From positions 5,355,007-5,419,006 of the forward strand of contig AP018180.1 in the NCBI GenBank assembly GCA_002368155.1: DNA of 64,000 bases, given 5' to 3'. The notes under the pieces are model-generated. The model had not been told where the DNA came from, did not search any database, and saw nothing but the letters and a program-made list of their open reading frames with translations. Position numbers and translations under genes: made by a program. The DNA is from Nostoc carneum NIES-2107 (GTDB lineage Bacteria; Cyanobacteriota; Cyanobacteriia; Cyanobacteriales; Nostocaceae). Below, one piece after another: positions 33,322 to 43,958 of this stretch; within the stretch, counting starts at the first letter, position 1; each line of letters begins with the position of its first letter.

Positions 33322-34147
33322 TTATTTGTATTATTTAAGTAGTGAGAAGTTAGGAATTGAGCATCAAATGGTGAATTTGTTTTCAGTTTATCCATCTGCT
33401 CTCAAGATTTATGGAGTTGGCTTGTGTAATCTAAACCCACGGCTAAGAGTTAAACATACTCTCTAAACAGCCTAAGAAGTCTCACAGTAGCCCTCACCCT
33501 TTGCACTACGGAAAATACTTGGGTGCCTACTAATGCAGTTCTGCCTCAATAATCAGGGCGGGTTAAAGTTGTTAAAAAATTCTCTGTTCTGGGAAATACG
33601 TTTAATCAGGGTGTCACTTCAAGTTGGCGAAGTATTAGCTAGCAATCTTTGGCGTTATATACTCTAAACATTTAAAAAACTGTTCAATTAATGACTTAGG
33701 TTTTGAGCGATTGCAGTAGTTGAAAGTAGTATTTTGCCAGCTTGAAGTTACATTCCGCCCTTCAAACTGGTATAGAAGGACAATTTTACTTAAATCATCA
33801 GGGATAAATTAAATTCCAGAGCAAATCCAGGGTTAACAAATAGGCCGAGTACAGCAGGCGCGTAAACAGACCATTTAAAATTACTTAAAATGGCGCAAAA
33901 CCCTGGAAGAGAATTAATTCTTTTGGCTTTTGTACAGACGCGATTAATCGCGTCTCTGCGACTTTTAACTTTCAAGGTAATGGTAATAGGAGGCTAAGAA
34001 AACAAACAAATTGGAGTAAATATGACAATAGGCAAGCAAATGCACCTATATGGCAATTAAAAGGTACACAGCTTAGATTAATTACTGATTATTGGCTGTT
34101 AAATCTTGCGCTTTTTGCTCACAGCTAATATCTGCAATTCATGACAT
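33322..34147. other. 825-bp gap containing one AGACGCG palindrome
   Basis: Non-coding between convergent genes. It holds one perfect 20-bp palindrome of the AGACGCG family (33936-33955). Nothing else was recognised. Confidence 0.5.
33932..33959. repeat. AGACGCG palindromic repeat, copy a
   Basis: Contains AGACGCGATTAATCGCGTCT, a perfect 20-bp palindrome, within GTAC-...-CTGC flanks. Same family as the copies at 38907, 39287, 43611 and 43885. Confidence 0.9.
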
Positions 34148-38860: not shown

Positions 38861-38930
38861 GCGGGATGAATCGTAAAGAGGCGATGGATCAAGACGCGAT
38901 GGGTTAAGACGCGATTCATCGCGTCTCTAC
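38861..38930. repeat. AGACGCG palindromic repeat, copy b
   Basis: Between the EACC1-like and CHAT genes: AGACGCGATTCATCGCGTCT at 38907-38926, followed by CTAC, and preceded by partial units (AAGACGCGATGGG). Non-coding spacer between two genes of one module. Confidence 0.9.
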
Positions 38931-38994: not shown

Positions 38995-41900
38995 GTGCAA
39001 GTCATCCACCTTGAACTGAAGCATATTGCGGGTGATTACGTAGAGTTACGGTATTTTGTTGATAATCCAAATGAGTATGAAAGGCGATCGCTCCCCCTTA
39101 AAGAAATCGCTGATTTGATTGAATTGGCAGAGCGAGATTATTACGTTTCGTCGTTACCAGAGGATTATGCAGTAACTGGGCGGCGGTTGTATAACTGGTT
39201 GGATGGGAGCGATCGCTATTTACAATCCTTGCTAGATAAGCATCGCCGGGAAGGGGTTGTATTAGCTATCAACACCGAACTTGTAGAGACGCGATTCATC
39301 GCGTCTTCGGAAATCGCGTCTGCACAAAGCGCGTCTCCACAAAACACGTCTCCACAAATCGCGTCTCTACACCATCTACCCTGGGAAGTTTTACACGATG
39401 GTACTAGCTTCCTAGTGCAACGTATCCCCGCTATTGTCCCCGTGCGGTGGGTGTCGGACAGCAAGGTAAAAAAATTGACTATTGCAGGGGAACCAGAAAA
39501 CCGGGCGCTCAATGTTTTGTTTATGGCGACTTCGCCCTTGAATGTCTCACCTGTGCTGGATTTTGAGGCGGAAGAAGCGCGGATTTTAGCAGCGACGGCA
39601 CGGCAACCTTTAGCCTTGACAGTGGAAGAAAGCGGCTGTTTGTCCGAGTTGGGTTATTTGGTTGATAGTTACGACCAGAATTATTTTGATGTTTTACACC
39701 TGACTGGTCATGCTACTTTACAAGATGGGCGATCGCGCTTCGTTACAGAAACCCTCACAGGTGAAGCTTACTATGCCAGTGCAGCAGATATCGCCGAAGA
39801 ATTACAATTTCGACTGCCGAAACTGATTTTCCTCTCTGGTTGTCGCACTGGACAAGCTGGTAATGGGGGTGATTTACCTTCAATGGCAGAAGAATTGCTG
39901 CAAGCTGGTGCAAAAGCGGTTTTGGGTTGGGGACAAAAGGTATTAGATCCAGAAGCGACGGCTGCGGCGGCTGCATTGTATCAGGAATTAGCGGCGGGGA
40001 AGCAAATTGTCGAGGCGGTTGCTAGTACTTATCAAGCATTAATTCAGAATCAAGCGCGGGATTGGCATTTGTTGCGGCTGTATGCAGCAGGTGATTTACC
40101 CAGTGCATTAGTCACACCTTTGCGGACTCGTGGACGAACACCAGCGCCAGCGCCTTCTGTGACTACCCAGTTTTTAGATCCGGCGGGTAAGGTGAAAGTC
40201 CCGACGCGGGAAAGTTTTGTTGGTCGTCGCCGTCAGTTGCAAAATTGTTTAAGGATACTGACACAATCTCCCGATGAAATTGGGGTGTTGATTCATGGGA
40301 TGGGCGGTTTGGGTAAAAGTAGTTTAGCAGCTAGGCTGTGTGACAGACTGCCGACTTTTGAGCGTGTTGTGTGGGTGGGGAGAATTGATGAAGGTAATTT
40401 AGTGAGTCGGTTGGCGGAAAAGTTGGATGATAACGAACAACGCAAAAGCTTACAAAATTACGATGAAGAATTGAGATTTCGGTTGCGGCGAGTTTTGCAG
40501 CAGTTGCATGAGGGTGGAAAGGCGTTTTTGTTAGTGCTGGATGACTTTGAAGTGAATTTAGCACCCCGCAATGAGAGTTATGTGCTGCAAGCGGAAGTAG
40601 CCGAGGTGTTGAAAGCTTTGGTTTGGGCGATTAGAGAAAATTACACATCCCACCGCATTATTATTACTTGCCGTTACGATTTTGAATTTAGTCTGTTGCA
40701 GTATTTCTACAAGCAGCCGTTGGATGCACTGCAAGGCGCAGATTTGCGAAAAAAGTTTAATCGCCTCACAGCTTTTGGTGACAAATCTCAGGTTGATGAG
40801 GCGTTGAAGTTACAGGCGCAGAAGTTGGCGGATGGGAATCCCCGCTTACTTGAATGGTTAGATAAGATTCTGCAAAATAAAACAGTTGATCGCGCAGCAA
40901 TTTTGCAGAGGTTAGCAGCAGATCCGGTGGAGTTGCGAGAGCAAGTTTTGGCAGAAGCGCTGCTGCAACAGATGGATGAAACTATGCGGGAGATGTTGTC
41001 ACGGGGTTTGGTGTTTGAGTTACCAGTTCCGAGGGAAGCGTTAGCCGCAGTTTGTGAGAATATCCCTAGTTTGGAACATTATATTAATCGGGCGGTGGCG
41101 TTGGGGTTGTTGGAAGTCAGCCATGATGAGGCGTTGCGAGTGCCGCGTATTTTGCCTGTGCAGTTAGCGGTAGATGGGGAGGGTTTGTATAAGCAAGCGG
41201 CTGAGGTGTTGTATCGCCTTTGGTGGGAAGAGGTGGAAACTTCAACTGAGGAAAAAGGGTTAGAAATTCATCGGTTGGCGTTGTTGGGGAAAGAAGAAAA
41301 AAAAGCAGCTGACATAGCCAGCAGTTTAGCAAATCGCTGGTGGCAACAAAGCCGTTTTAGAGAAGCATTGCAACTGTGCAAATCAACCTTAGAAATTACT
41401 GAAGACTATCGCGTTCTCAAGGAGATGGGCTATTGTGAGAGCTTAGTTGGTGAAGTTGATAAAGCACTAAAGCATTATCAACAAGCGTTAAACCTTTGTC
41501 CCCCAGAAGACAAACAAGAACAAGCAGCAATTAGTCACTATTTAGGGATGCTCAAAGCCAATAGCGGCGAAATCACCGAAGCGATCGCTCTATATCAACA
41601 ATCCCTGGCGCTCAAAGAACAAATCGGCGATGTCCAAGGCAAAGCGGCGACGTTGCACGAACTGGGGAGACTCAAAGCCAATAGCGGGGAAATCACTGAA
41701 GCGATCGCTCTATATCAACAATCCCTGGCGCTCAAAGAACAAATCGGCGATGTCCAAGGCAAAGCGGCGACGTTGCACGAACTGGGGAGACTCAAAGCCA
41801 ATAGCGGGGAAATCACCGCAGCGATCGCTCTATATCAACAATCCCTGGCGCTCTTTGAACAAATCGGCGATGTCCAAGGCAAAGCGGCGACGTTGCACGA

Positions 41901-42414
41901 ACTGGGGAGACTCAAAGCCAATAGCGGGGAAATCACCGCAGCGATCGCCCTTTATCAACAATCCCTGGCTATTGAGGAACAAATCGGCAATGTCCAAGGC
42001 AAAGCGGCGACGTTGCACAATCTGGGAATGCTCAAAGCCAATAGCGGGGAAATCACCGAAGCGATCGCTCTATATCAACAATCCCTGGCGCTCAAGGAAC
42101 AAATCGGCAATGTCCAAGGCAAAGCGGCGACTTTGCACTGTCTGGGAATGCTCAAAGCCAATAGCGGGGAAATCACCGAAGCGATCGCCCTTTATCAACA
42201 ATCCCTGGCTATTGAGGAACAAATCGGCAATGTCCAAGGCAAAGCAATGACTTTGTGGTGCTTAGGACATTTAGCAGAAAAACAGGGTAATTACAATCAA
42301 GCACTAGATTATTTGCAGCCAGCCTTGGAGATATTGCAGCGTATCCAATCGCCTGATGCTGAAGCAGTTAGGCAAATGGTAGTGAGAGTACAAGGGTTAA
42401 TTTATAATTCGTAA
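38995..42414 (+). CDS. CHAT-NTPase-TPR conflict-type protein
   Basis: A 1139-residue STAND-like protein. The CHAT caspase-like domain (about 125-370) has His239 in LHLTGHA and Cys283 in LSGCRTGQ. The NTPase (about 405-700) has Walker A HGMGGLGKSS (434-443), Walker B FLLVLDDFEVN and a GxP-like NPRLLEW. The C-terminal sensor is a TPR array with six near-identical 40-residue units plus degenerate ones (about 820-1110). Such proteins are thought to oligomerise on sensing a trigger through the repeats and activate the protease; this is family knowledge. Residues about 97-126 are translated from an inserted palindromic repeat. The EACC1-like gene upstream probably works with it. Confidence 0.9.
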   Translation: MQVIHLELKHIAGDYVELRYFVDNPNEYERRSLPLKEIADLIELAERDYYVSSLPEDYAVTGRRLYNWLDGSDRYLQSLLDKHRREGVVLAINTELVETRFIASSEIASAQSASPQNTSPQIASLHHLPWEVLHDGTSFLVQRIPAIVPVRWVSDSKVKKLTIAGEPENRALNVLFMATSPLNVSPVLDFEAEEARILAATARQPLALTVEESGCLSELGYLVDSYDQNYFDVLHLTGHATLQDGRSRFVTETLTGEAYYASAADIAEELQFRLPKLIFLSGCRTGQAGNGGDLPSMAEELLQAGAKAVLGWGQKVLDPEATAAAAALYQELAAGKQIVEAVASTYQALIQNQARDWHLLRLYAAGDLPSALVTPLRTRGRTPAPAPSVTTQFLDPAGKVKVPTRESFVGRRRQLQNCLRILTQSPDEIGVLIHGMGGLGKSSLAARLCDRLPTFERVVWVGRIDEGNLVSRLAEKLDDNEQRKSLQNYDEELRFRLRRVLQQLHEGGKAFLLVLDDFEVNLAPRNESYVLQAEVAEVLKALVWAIRENYTSHRIIITCRYDFEFSLLQYFYKQPLDALQGADLRKKFNRLTAFGDKSQVDEALKLQAQKLADGNPRLLEWLDKILQNKTVDRAAILQRLAADPVELREQVLAEALLQQMDETMREMLSRGLVFELPVPREALAAVCENIPSLEHYINRAVALGLLEVSHDEALRVPRILPVQLAVDGEGLYKQAAEVLYRLWWEEVETSTEEKGLEIHRLALLGKEEKKAADIASSLANRWWQQSRFREALQLCKSTLEITEDYRVLKEMGYCESLVGEVDKALKHYQQALNLCPPEDKQEQAAISHYLGMLKANSGEITEAIALYQQSLALKEQIGDVQGKAATLHELGRLKANSGEITEAIALYQQSLALKEQIGDVQGKAATLHELGRLKANSGEITAAIALYQQSLALFEQIGDVQGKAATLHELGRLKANSGEITAAIALYQQSLAIEEQIGNVQGKAATLHNLGMLKANSGEITEAIALYQQSLALKEQIGNVQGKAATLHCLGMLKANSGEITEAIALYQQSLAIEEQIGNVQGKAMTLWCLGHLAEKQGNYNQALDYLQPALEILQRIQSPDAEAVRQMVVRVQGLIYNS
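39283..39370. repeat. AGACGCG palindromic repeat cluster inside the CHAT gene, copy c
   Basis: Starts GTAGAGACGCG, contains AGACGCGATTCATCGCGTCT (39287-39306) and then degenerate units (AATCGCGTCTGCAC, GCGCGTCTCCAC, AACACGTCTCCAC, AATCGCGTCTCTAC). It is translated without a stop as a Ser/Ala-rich stretch just before the conserved LPWEVLHDG of the CHAT protein. Confidence 0.92.
41527..42246 (+). repeat. 120-bp coding tandem repeat (TPR units)
   Basis: Six consecutive 120-bp units, each encoding a 40-residue TPR of the form LHELGRLKANSGEITEAIAL (start only shown), with only a few differences between units. Each unit carries one HIP1 site or a near match. The uniform length and high identity point to recent expansion or gene conversion. 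Confidence 0.95.
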
Positions 42415-42516: not shown

Positions 42517-43026
42517 ATGGTGCTGGGTGCGATCGCCGATTTTGCCTTAAGCTATCTTATTCACCAGTCTTTGATATTCATTAATGAGGCTTGGAAGCTC
42601 GTGAATGAGGCTCGGAAGTTCATTAATGAGGCTCAGAAGTTCATGAATGAGGCTCGGAAGCTCGTGAATGAGGCTCGGAAGTTCATTAATAAGGCTCAGA
42701 AGTTCGTGAATGAGGCTCGGAAGCTCATGAATGAGGCTCAGAAGCTCGTGAATGAAGCTCGGAAGTTCATTAATGAGGCTCAGAAGCTCGTGAATGAAGC
42801 TCGGAAGTTCATTAATGAGGCTCGGAAGTTCATTAATGAGCCTTTGATATTTGTTTACCTGCTTTTTAGGCTAATACTTGGGTTATCTTACCTTGCGATC
42901 GCCCCAATTCAGCCCGAAGCAAATTCTAAACTAAAGAATCTGGCATCCTCTAGCATCAATCAGCACAGGTTATATTCATTACGTCCGATAAATTTTGTCA
43001 ATCAATCGCCAGCTTTGTGCATCTAA
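42517..43026 (+). CDS. possible heptapeptide-repeat protein (uncertain)
   Basis: A 169-residue open frame (ATG 42517) whose central part is 12 copies of a 7-residue unit, EARKFIN/EAQKLVN. This would form a charged amphipathic helix or coiled coil, between hydrophobic ends (LSYLIHQSLIFI and IFVYLLFRLILGLSYL). No Shine-Dalgarno is evident. Repeats whose unit is a multiple of three stay open by default in several frames, so this may be non-coding repeat DNA. The frame-preserving variation (Arg/Gln, Lys, Phe/Leu, Ile/Val/Met changes) is mildly in favour of coding. No family recognised. Confidence 0.35.
   Translation: MVLGAIADFALSYLIHQSLIFINEAWKLVNEARKFINEAQKFMNEARKLVNEARKFINKAQKFVNEARKLMNEAQKLVNEARKFINEAQKLVNEARKFINEARKFINEPLIFVYLLFRLILGLSYLAIAPIQPEANSKLKNLASSSINQHRLYSLRPINFVNQSPALCI
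42583..42834. repeat. 21-bp tandem repeat, 12 units
   Basis: Twelve consecutive 21-bp units of the type AATGAGGCTCGGAAGTTCAT plus one base, with variation at about six positions. The array is bordered on both sides by CTTTGATATT (near 42569 and 42842). It is not a CRISPR because there are no spacers. Confidence 0.95.
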
Positions 43027-43248: not shown

Positions 43249-43884
43249 ATGAATAATTCTAATCTTCAACCAAATAACGACAAACCTAAATACAACGGTA
43301 AATATCGAGTTGATTCTACACGTTTGCCAGCATGGAATTATGCAACTAATGGTGCATATTTTCTGACTATTTGCACGAAGGGTAAAGAATGCTTTTTTGG
43401 TGAGGTTGTGCAGGGGGAAATGCAGTTATCGCCAGTTGGAGAGGTTGCACGAAGGTTGTGGGGTGAGATTCCTCATCAGTTTTCTAATTGTGATATTGAT
43501 GTGTTTTGCGTTATGCCTAATCATATTCACGGGATTCTTATCCTTAATCAAATACAAATGGAATCGGTGAATTCGGAAGAAGGCGCGATGAATTTCGATG
43601 ACGAAGAAGAAGACGCGATGAATCGCGTCTCTACAAGAGGGGGGGTGACGGGGTTGTTTAATCCGATGTTGTCGAAAAATTCGGTTTCTAAAATTGTGCG
43701 GTGGTATAAGGGACGATGTACGTTTGAAATTAATCAAATTTATGAAGGTTTTGGATGGCAAGAACGGTTTTATGATGAAATAATCCGCAATCAATTCGCC
43801 CTGGATAAAATTCGACAATATATTATCGATAACCCAATCAATTGGGAACGCGATCGCGAACAACAACCCCATCCCCCCTTGTAG
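43249..43884 (+). CDS. RAYT: REP-associated tyrosine transposase (Y1/HUH)
   Basis: A 211-residue Y1-type transposase of the IS200-like/RAYT class. It starts YRVDSTRLPAWNYATNGAYF and LTICTKGKECFFGEV, has the HUH metal motif in MPNHIHGILIL, and the helix with the nucleophilic Tyr near YDEIIRN...IRQYIIDNP. There are no IS200 ends around it. Instead, palindromes AGACGCGATTCATCGCGTCT lie directly after its stop and even inside the gene (43611-43630, giving EEDAMNRVSTRGG in the protein). RAYTs excise and copy such palindromes. The stop TAG (43882-43884) is immediately followed by the palindrome. The inserted loop sits between conserved parts, so activity may remain. Confidence 0.9.
   Translation: MNNSNLQPNNDKPKYNGKYRVDSTRLPAWNYATNGAYFLTICTKGKECFFGEVVQGEMQLSPVGEVARRLWGEIPHQFSNCDIDVFCVMPNHIHGILILNQIQMESVNSEEGAMNFDDEEEDAMNRVSTRGGVTGLFNPMLSKNSVSKIVRWYKGRCTFEINQIYEGFGWQERFYDEIIRNQFALDKIRQYIIDNPINWERDREQQPHPPL
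43598..43640. repeat. AGACGCG palindromic repeat inside RAYT gene, copy d
   Basis: AGACGCGATGAATCGCGTCT at 43611-43630 (reverse complement of the common core), with CTAC after it, read in frame in the RAYT coding sequence. Confidence 0.9.
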
Positions 43885-43958
43885 AGACGCGATTCATCGC
43901 GTCTTCTTCCAGATTCATCGCGTCTTCTTCTTCCAGATTCATCACGTCATCGCGTCTT
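43881..43958. repeat. AGACGCG palindromic repeat cluster between convergent genes, copy e
   Basis: GTAG then AGACGCGATTCATCGCGTCT (43885-43904), followed by two partial units (AGATTCATCGCGTCTTC, AGATTCATCACGTC) and ATCGCGTCTT. The left edge coincides with the RAYT stop codon and the right edge overlaps the end of the cyclase gene, whose stop TGA (43947-43949) is inside a GACGCGATGA unit. Confidence 0.9.

Follow-up and report, generated by a model that had tools for sequence, protein, structure and literature searches.

A RAYT of Nostoc carneum and its dispersed GTAG palindromes as a probable REPtron

We examined a 64,000-nucleotide stretch of the Nostoc carneum NIES-2107 genome (contig AP018180.1; hereafter the window) and suggest, from comparisons of sequence, that the RAYT gene it contains and a short palindrome lying within and around that gene very probably constitute a REPtron, in which a TnpAREP/RAYT that is single-copy for its clade, and of the cyanobacterial class that carries its own REPs inside the gene, is paired with dispersed REPs. 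Direct support comes from an intact set of motifs, purifying selection on the gene, the pairing of RAYT lineages with palindrome sequences, a genome-wide palindrome count that goes with presence of the gene, and a constant placement and orientation of the copies in and around it. We infer binding, cutting and copying of the palindrome by this RAYT, with GTAG as the guide. The enzyme would be a single-strand HUH endonuclease for which the most likely target is the hairpin AGACGCGAT-TC-ATCGCGTCT plus its GTAG foot in single-stranded form, and that would cut beside the hairpin, at CT if it works as TnpAREPs do, and rejoin the palindrome elsewhere, such that copies would accumulate in trans over the whole chromosome.

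The arrangement is of an already known type, since REPs inside the gene and REP-supplied stop codons are described in the available text of two earlier papers. That of Quentin 2018 (PMC6006769) treats REPs inside tnpAREP genes as the hallmark of subclass 2.4, equates this subclass with RAYT group 4 of Bertels and recognises two REP types in it, "double foot" and single-foot; that of Di Nocera 2013 (PMC3733652) describes, for filamentous cyanobacteria, GTAG REPs, REPs in frame inside genes and TAG stops supplied by REPs. What we add to the cited papers is a family-wide copy-number test, pairing at the level of the loop, a fixed pattern of orientation and a REP-bounded change of neighbours. Less expected is that, where some orthologues occupy different loci, the DNA they have in common is bounded by REPs, with flanks that are sometimes independent. 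The system bears on why RAYTs persist in single copy and on how each of them chooses its own REP.

The gene and its palindromes

The features of the window that concern us are the following:

43249..43884, plus strand: RAYT/TnpAREP gene, a 211-aa open reading frame with a Y1_Tnp domain
43570..43610 (limits approximate), plus strand: degenerate in-frame half-units, 5' of the in-gene REP
43611..43634, minus strand: in-gene REP, with the 20-mer at 43611-43630 and the foot CTAC at 43631-43634, which is GTAG on the minus strand
43881..43904, plus strand: terminal REP, with the 20-mer at 43885-43904; its GTAG foot at 43881-43884 contains the TAG stop codon of the RAYT
43905..43957, plus strand: imperfect array of ATTCATCGCGTCT half-units, 3' of the terminal REP
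39283..39370, plus strand: REP with GTAG foot, then four half-units at a spacing of about 15 bp and a final CTAC, in frame within another gene
38907..38930, minus strand: REP copy with a CTAC foot on the right, common to G004 and G006
33932..33955, plus strand: REP copy with a TTAA loop and a left foot of GTAC replacing GTAG

As the initial annotation of this DNA had proposed for a Y1/HUH RAYT, the palindrome lies both inside the gene (43611-43630) and at its stop (43885-43904), and the 211-aa product of the open frame 43249-43884 contains a Y1_Tnp domain (Pfam, E 3.9e-7). NCBIfam REP_Tyr_transpos also matches (2e-12, below the family cut-off). Against NCBIfam NF047646 the window RAYT scored 47.2 bits in two stretches and missed the curated cut-off of 80 bits; all 30 aligned RAYTs match this model at E 0.01 or better. 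The Pfam scan of the window's genome (G000) did not list the window RAYT, probably because an insert splits the domain, and the RAYT search of this genome was done with a protein query instead of Pfam. The solved E. coli TnpAREP (PDB 4er8) was matched by a profile of the 30 RAYTs (4.3e-7), a PDB search with the window protein as a single sequence gave no match, and an AlphaFold2 model from 8 sequences was discarded (mean pLDDT 33).

The HUH motif of the window RAYT is N91-H-I-H94, which fits the NH[IFV]H of subclass 2.4, and the WQ motif of that subclass is found as W170-Q171. The catalytic-type Y191 stands in YIIDNP; in the window RAYT and L180 this motif is one residue off the YIxNNP of subclass 2.4, and the other six of the eight aligned sequences have YIINNP. 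Residues H92, H94, W170, Q171 and Y191 are invariant in an alignment of 30 diverse RAYTs. Between the HUH and Tyr motifs, where subclass 2.4 also has its in-gene REPs, the REP of the window gene encodes EDAMNRVSTR in frame; in-frame peptides such as EDAMNRVSTRG in RAYT proteins are REP-encoded, a caution for annotation. The half-unit segment in front of it varies in length by whole codons among eight aligned orthologues. There is no 5' palindrome copy within 250 bp of the window gene, and the GTAG REP at its stop was counted as the flanking hairpin, GT[AG]G-footed and repeated in the genome, that is characteristic of TnpAREP/RAYT genes. For the eight orthologue pairs computed, dN/dS is 0.22-0.47, which indicates that the window-type RAYT is under purifying selection and hence maintained, though the orthologue of G003 is cut off after 58 codons; this genome has 107 copies of the palindrome all the same.

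The core AGACGCGATNNATCGCGTCT occurs 244 times in the 9.36-Mb genome, and its reversed-pattern control 0 times. With up to three mismatches allowed in the 20-mer, the window holds five copies (at 33936, 38907, 39287, 43611 and 43885), the first three being those noted initially at 33.9, 38.9 and 39.3 kb; shuffling of the window gave an expectation of 0.00 and a largest count of 0 in 100 shuffles. Folded as single-stranded DNA, each of the five gives a stem of 8 bp closed by a loop of 4 nt (-8.7 to -9.1 kcal/mol), and hairpins as good arose in 0 of 200 shuffles. Copies of the palindrome whose loop is TTCA are called the TTCA form below. The REP and half-units at 39283-39370 encode a linker of about 30 residues in a gene that we take to be of the CHAT/NB-ARC/TPR type; this insertion is present in the window's genome and in G004, and G005 and G007 have a short linker there instead. 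The copy at 33932-33955 lies within about 130 bp that are missing from G004 and G006. Other repeats are found nearby: upstream of the RAYT, an open frame at 42517-43026 consists of 21-bp repeats of the NEARKFINEAQK type and TCATTAATGA palindromes, with different repeat units at the equivalent site in G005, and 120-bp tandem repeats (41543-42250) lie near the 3' end of the gene at 38995-42414.

The initial annotation had placed GTAG/CTAC shoulders on both sides of the palindrome; we find one foot at most. In the window, the copies at 38907 and 43611 have CTAC on the right, those at 39287 and 43885 have GTAG on the left, and that at 33936 has GTAC on the left without GTAG, so that 0 of 5 carry two such shoulders. 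Among the 31 copies in 800 contiguous kb of the window's chromosome (G000:C1:1-800000), GTAG stands on one side in 20, GTAC without GTAG in 9 and neither in 2; GTAG on both sides occurs in 0 of the 31, which argues for one foot per copy. As had been supposed, GTAG next to the hairpin suits the role of recognition tetranucleotide for a TnpAREP, going by the available text of PMC8266576. The GTAC class (9 of 31, and the window copy at 33932-33955) usually reads TTGTAC, and its other side is often GGAG, GCAG or ACAG. With exact copies only counted, there are 2 close pairs among the 31 in 800 kb, a count that bears on whether most copies form REPINs, inverted pairs of REPs that move as a unit.

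With the in-gene and terminal copies set aside, the 64 kb hold 3 vs 1.7 expected at the genome mean (Poisson P ~0.24), and thus show no clear local cluster around the RAYT. The palindrome is spread genome-wide without clear enrichment near the gene, and the earlier suggestion that the RAYT drives a local spread is not supported.

Copy number and pairing across the family

The clade of the window gene numbers 31 at a length of at least 150 aa, with 67-91% BLAST identity for the members other than the window gene. All 31 have a REP inside the gene or within 250 bp, 27 have one inside, and 69 of the 79 clade REPs counted are exactly of the TTCA/TGAA form. In the 30 members of at least 165 aa, to which the orientation, stop and dN/dS analyses refer, the gene's own palindrome, wherever present, is on the plus strand upstream, on the minus strand inside and on the plus strand at the 3' end (30/30); an additional upstream minus-strand reading in L096 comes from a palindrome with a different core and a double foot. 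In 22 of these 30 genes, vs 3 of 72 other RAYTs, the stop is provided by the 3' copy. Besides G003, stops were flagged in G027 and G143, where they lie near the end (open frames of 223 and 202 aa), and in G148. The window's genome contains one member of the clade and three other RAYT matches that are 31-40% identical; the window RAYT is single-copy for its clade.

We compared 217 genomes of the family, of which 31 have a full-length orthologue (four with a flagged stop included), 6 a partial or broken one and 180 none, presence and absence being judged among the matches listed at E 1e-20. The median number of copies is 127 (range 9-265) in the first group, 121 in the second and 3 in the third, and a permutation stratified by genus reached the observed difference in 0 of 20000 rounds, kinship among these 217 related genomes being handled at genus level only. 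In the best-sampled genus the median is 121 in 22 genomes with any orthologue vs 53 in 31 without. The TTCA form has at most 8 copies in 118 genomes from 45 genera without the orthologue, and all 15 of the non-orthologue genomes with at least 20 TTCA copies fall in the 11 genera that have the orthologue elsewhere.

The expectation in the initial annotation that the palindrome would be less abundant in relatives without this RAYT is upheld on average, given medians of 3 vs 127, and fails for 17 of the 180 genomes without a close orthologue, which have at least 90 copies. Loop sequence separates some of these. Of the copies in G026, 130 of 135 have an ATAT loop, as do 124 of 130 in G141, and 0 of 164 in G118 are of the TTCA form; the RAYT locus of G141 (L110) carries an ATAT palindrome, the broken RAYT of G026 (L039) does not, and the RAYT of G118 (L104) is followed by two TTAA palindromes. 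In these three genomes most or all copies have another loop, of a kind that accompanies a different RAYT in the genome itself or in its genus. Other loops and RAYTs thus account for some of the 17 high-copy genomes, and not for G215, G001 or G002, which have 143, 93 and 59 TTCA copies without the gene and which we provisionally read as gene losses. Loss is favoured as one cause of copies without the gene by G193, which was scored as lacking it and retains a C-terminal RAYT remnant (seen by eye). Conversely, G140 has a full-length orthologue but 9 copies, 1 of them of the TTCA form. G215 has 369 copies in total, 152 of them ATAT, plus an ATAT-type RAYT (L103).

Other RAYT lineages have other cores in similar positions. 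The comparison took in 103 RAYT genes with a length of 150 aa or more (6 shorter loci were left out, and L001, L002 and L004 were omitted as having no match to the RAYT query). In 94 of them a REP occurs within the gene or no more than 250 bp from it, and in 70 it is in-gene; where in-gene REPs occur and both motifs could be recognised (69 genes), all in-gene REPs lie between the HUH and Tyr motifs in 66. In the distance test, which used 176 protein columns without the insert, REP-stem distance rises with protein distance for 93 RAYTs (Mantel r 0.70), as it does for the 63 outside the window's clade (r 0.74) and for 15 thinned below 60% identity (r 0.54), with 0 of 2000 shuffles reaching the observed value in each test. 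The core AGACGTTGCANTGCAACGTCT, for example, has 1 copy in the window's genome and a median of 47 (5-79) in 12 genomes whose fetched RAYT locus carries it, though G240 has 181 copies and no locus of this type among those fetched. The proposal that this palindrome is the partner of this RAYT agrees with both the copy numbers across the 217 genomes and the Mantel r of 0.70, and, on these comparisons, that the two belong together is well supported. Nostoc-type genomes are in this respect a natural experiment, with numerous RAYT lineages that each have a distinct core, some of them also a distinct two-base loop, and with apparent losses within genera, by which both REP specificity and the decay of REPs after loss of a RAYT should become measurable.

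Possible other sources of the palindrome, and known systems

Could the palindrome be an unrelated repeat, spread by other means, for which the RAYT was merely one of many genes struck? Copies do insert in frame in another gene (39283-39370), and several genomes have many copies without the RAYT. Against this, 244 copies in 9.36 Mb imply a chance in-gene rate of about 1.7% for a 640-bp gene, vs 70 of 103 RAYTs, which typically carry their own lineage's core, and both copy number and core sequence track the RAYT; we regard this explanation as very improbable. Even harder to credit is that a different Y1 protein of the same genome handles the palindrome. The window's genome does offer candidates in its three further RAYT matches and in the other Y1_Tnp genes L001, L002 and L004, and near-identical palindromes occur in distinct RAYT lineages, such as those of L104 (TTAA loop) and L103 (ATAT loop). 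However, L003 and L064 carry REPs of the GGATACCC and GGGCAAGG types, L060 has none within 250 bp, the hairpins of L004 are of the GATGCGTTA type, with GTAG at some of them, and L002 has no hairpin with a stem of at least 9; among the loci examined, the AGACGCGAT type is found only at the window gene.

Two observations on these further Y1 genes may be recorded. At L004, two of the GATGCGTTA-type hairpins are preceded by GTAG, beside another Y1 gene, and the strongest Y1_Tnp match of the genome is L001 (G000:C1:2495980-2496324), a 148-aa open frame without a match to the RAYT query.

Among known systems, likeness to TnpAREP subclass 2.4 was judged on motifs and REP arrangement. As far as that subclass is described in the available text of PMC6006769, the window RAYT resembles it in being cyanobacterial, in its NHIH and WQ motifs, in having REPs that flank the gene and in-frame REPs between the HuH and Y motifs, and in the length variation of short repeats there. 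It differs in the single GTAG foot of the sampled REPs of the window's genome, in the stop supplied by the 3' REP and in the half-unit arrays that follow. "Double foot" REPs lie beside many RAYTs of the family and make up 0 of 31 in the window-genome sample, an absence that does not exclude membership in subclass 2.4, because the single-foot type is allowed there (PMC6006769, available text). With the E. coli TnpAREP (4er8) the window RAYT shares the motif region, by profile, and GTAG directly 5' of the hairpin; unlike that enzyme, which needs a bulge according to the available text of PMC8266576, it has a hairpin that is perfect and short, and its gene has a REP inside and encodes a large variable protein insert. 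The experiments on other TnpAREPs in PMC8266576, as available, show that GTAG, loop and stem weigh differently by group. The cyanobacterial families GTAG-12, 15 and 16 of Di Nocera 2013 (PMC3733652), compared here by their description in the available text only, are alike in their GTAG palindromes, TAG stops and in-frame REPs. A literature search for the palindrome strings gave matches only in papers whose titles are unrelated to cyanobacteria or REPs.

The REPs of the gene and its changing neighbours

What the in-gene and terminal copies may be for can be read in more than one way. We tentatively consider, while thinking it rather unlikely, that they are working parts: the gene would then be a cassette bounded by its own substrate, cut or recombined there and so changing neighbours, sometimes one flank at a time, vs the published view of REPtrons as immobile, and through the in-gene hairpin the protein may recognise the gene or message that encodes it and so restrain itself. 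For the reading that they are neutral leftovers, of REPs that once struck the 3' end and a loop able to tolerate them and have since been passed on, the chances seem to us not far short of even, and it is compatible with a REPtron. It agrees with the whole-codon length variation of the in-gene segment among the eight aligned orthologues, with the tolerance of an in-frame REP in another gene (39283-39370), with the published modelling that puts the insert away from the active site (PMC6006769, available text) and with 4 of 31 clade members having no intact in-gene copy. It accounts less readily for the fixed order and orientation (5' plus, in-gene minus, 3' plus) of the own-palindrome copies present in 30 of 30 clade genes, and for the recurrence of in-gene copies in divergent RAYTs with other cores.

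Some pairs of orthologues that occupy different loci are alike in DNA from the foot of the 5' REP (about -136 to -148) as far as the end of the 3' REP (about +19 to +24), as in L090/L095 and, on the L095 side, in L027/L095. In other pairs the similarity continues past the inner 5' REP into an upstream leader, with REP-like remnants at the far end of that leader (by eye). The two flanks can be independent: L025 and L098 share the right flank of their group and not the left, and L030 and L088 share only the right, though left-flank clusters are inflated by single linkage through repeat-rich genes. The block of G179 has apparently been reduced to a hybrid REP. Within the window's genus, a search of G001, G002, G005 and G007 gave no clean empty site for the block: G002 has the downstream gene and a different upstream neighbour, both sides match in G005 and G007 with other content between them, and in G001 the upstream side matches only in repeats.

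Movement of the REP-RAYT-REP block as a unit, in the manner of IS200/IS605, would explain why similarity between some orthologues at different loci ends at the 5' REP foot and the 3' REP end. The end copies also share one orientation, as do the ends of IS200-type elements. A Y1 HUH transposase and hairpin ends with a 5' tetranucleotide (PMC8266576, available text) are further points of likeness, whereas the window's genome has a single clade copy of the RAYT and not several near-identical ones. Other pairs, moreover, share sequence past the inner 5' REP, and G179 seems to have lost the block and kept a hybrid REP, as in recombination between repeats. Since the flanks change independently, we keep unit transposition as a rival, and an unlikely one; from the sequences compared, the REP-bounded change of neighbours would fit recombination between dispersed REPs at least as well, and the independent flanks fit it better. 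A further arrangement is seen by eye at L144, L145, L146, L149 and L154-L156, where the RAYT leader is followed by other sequence, apparently a small gene, and in L146 (G193) a C-terminal remnant of the RAYT lies behind that apparent gene.
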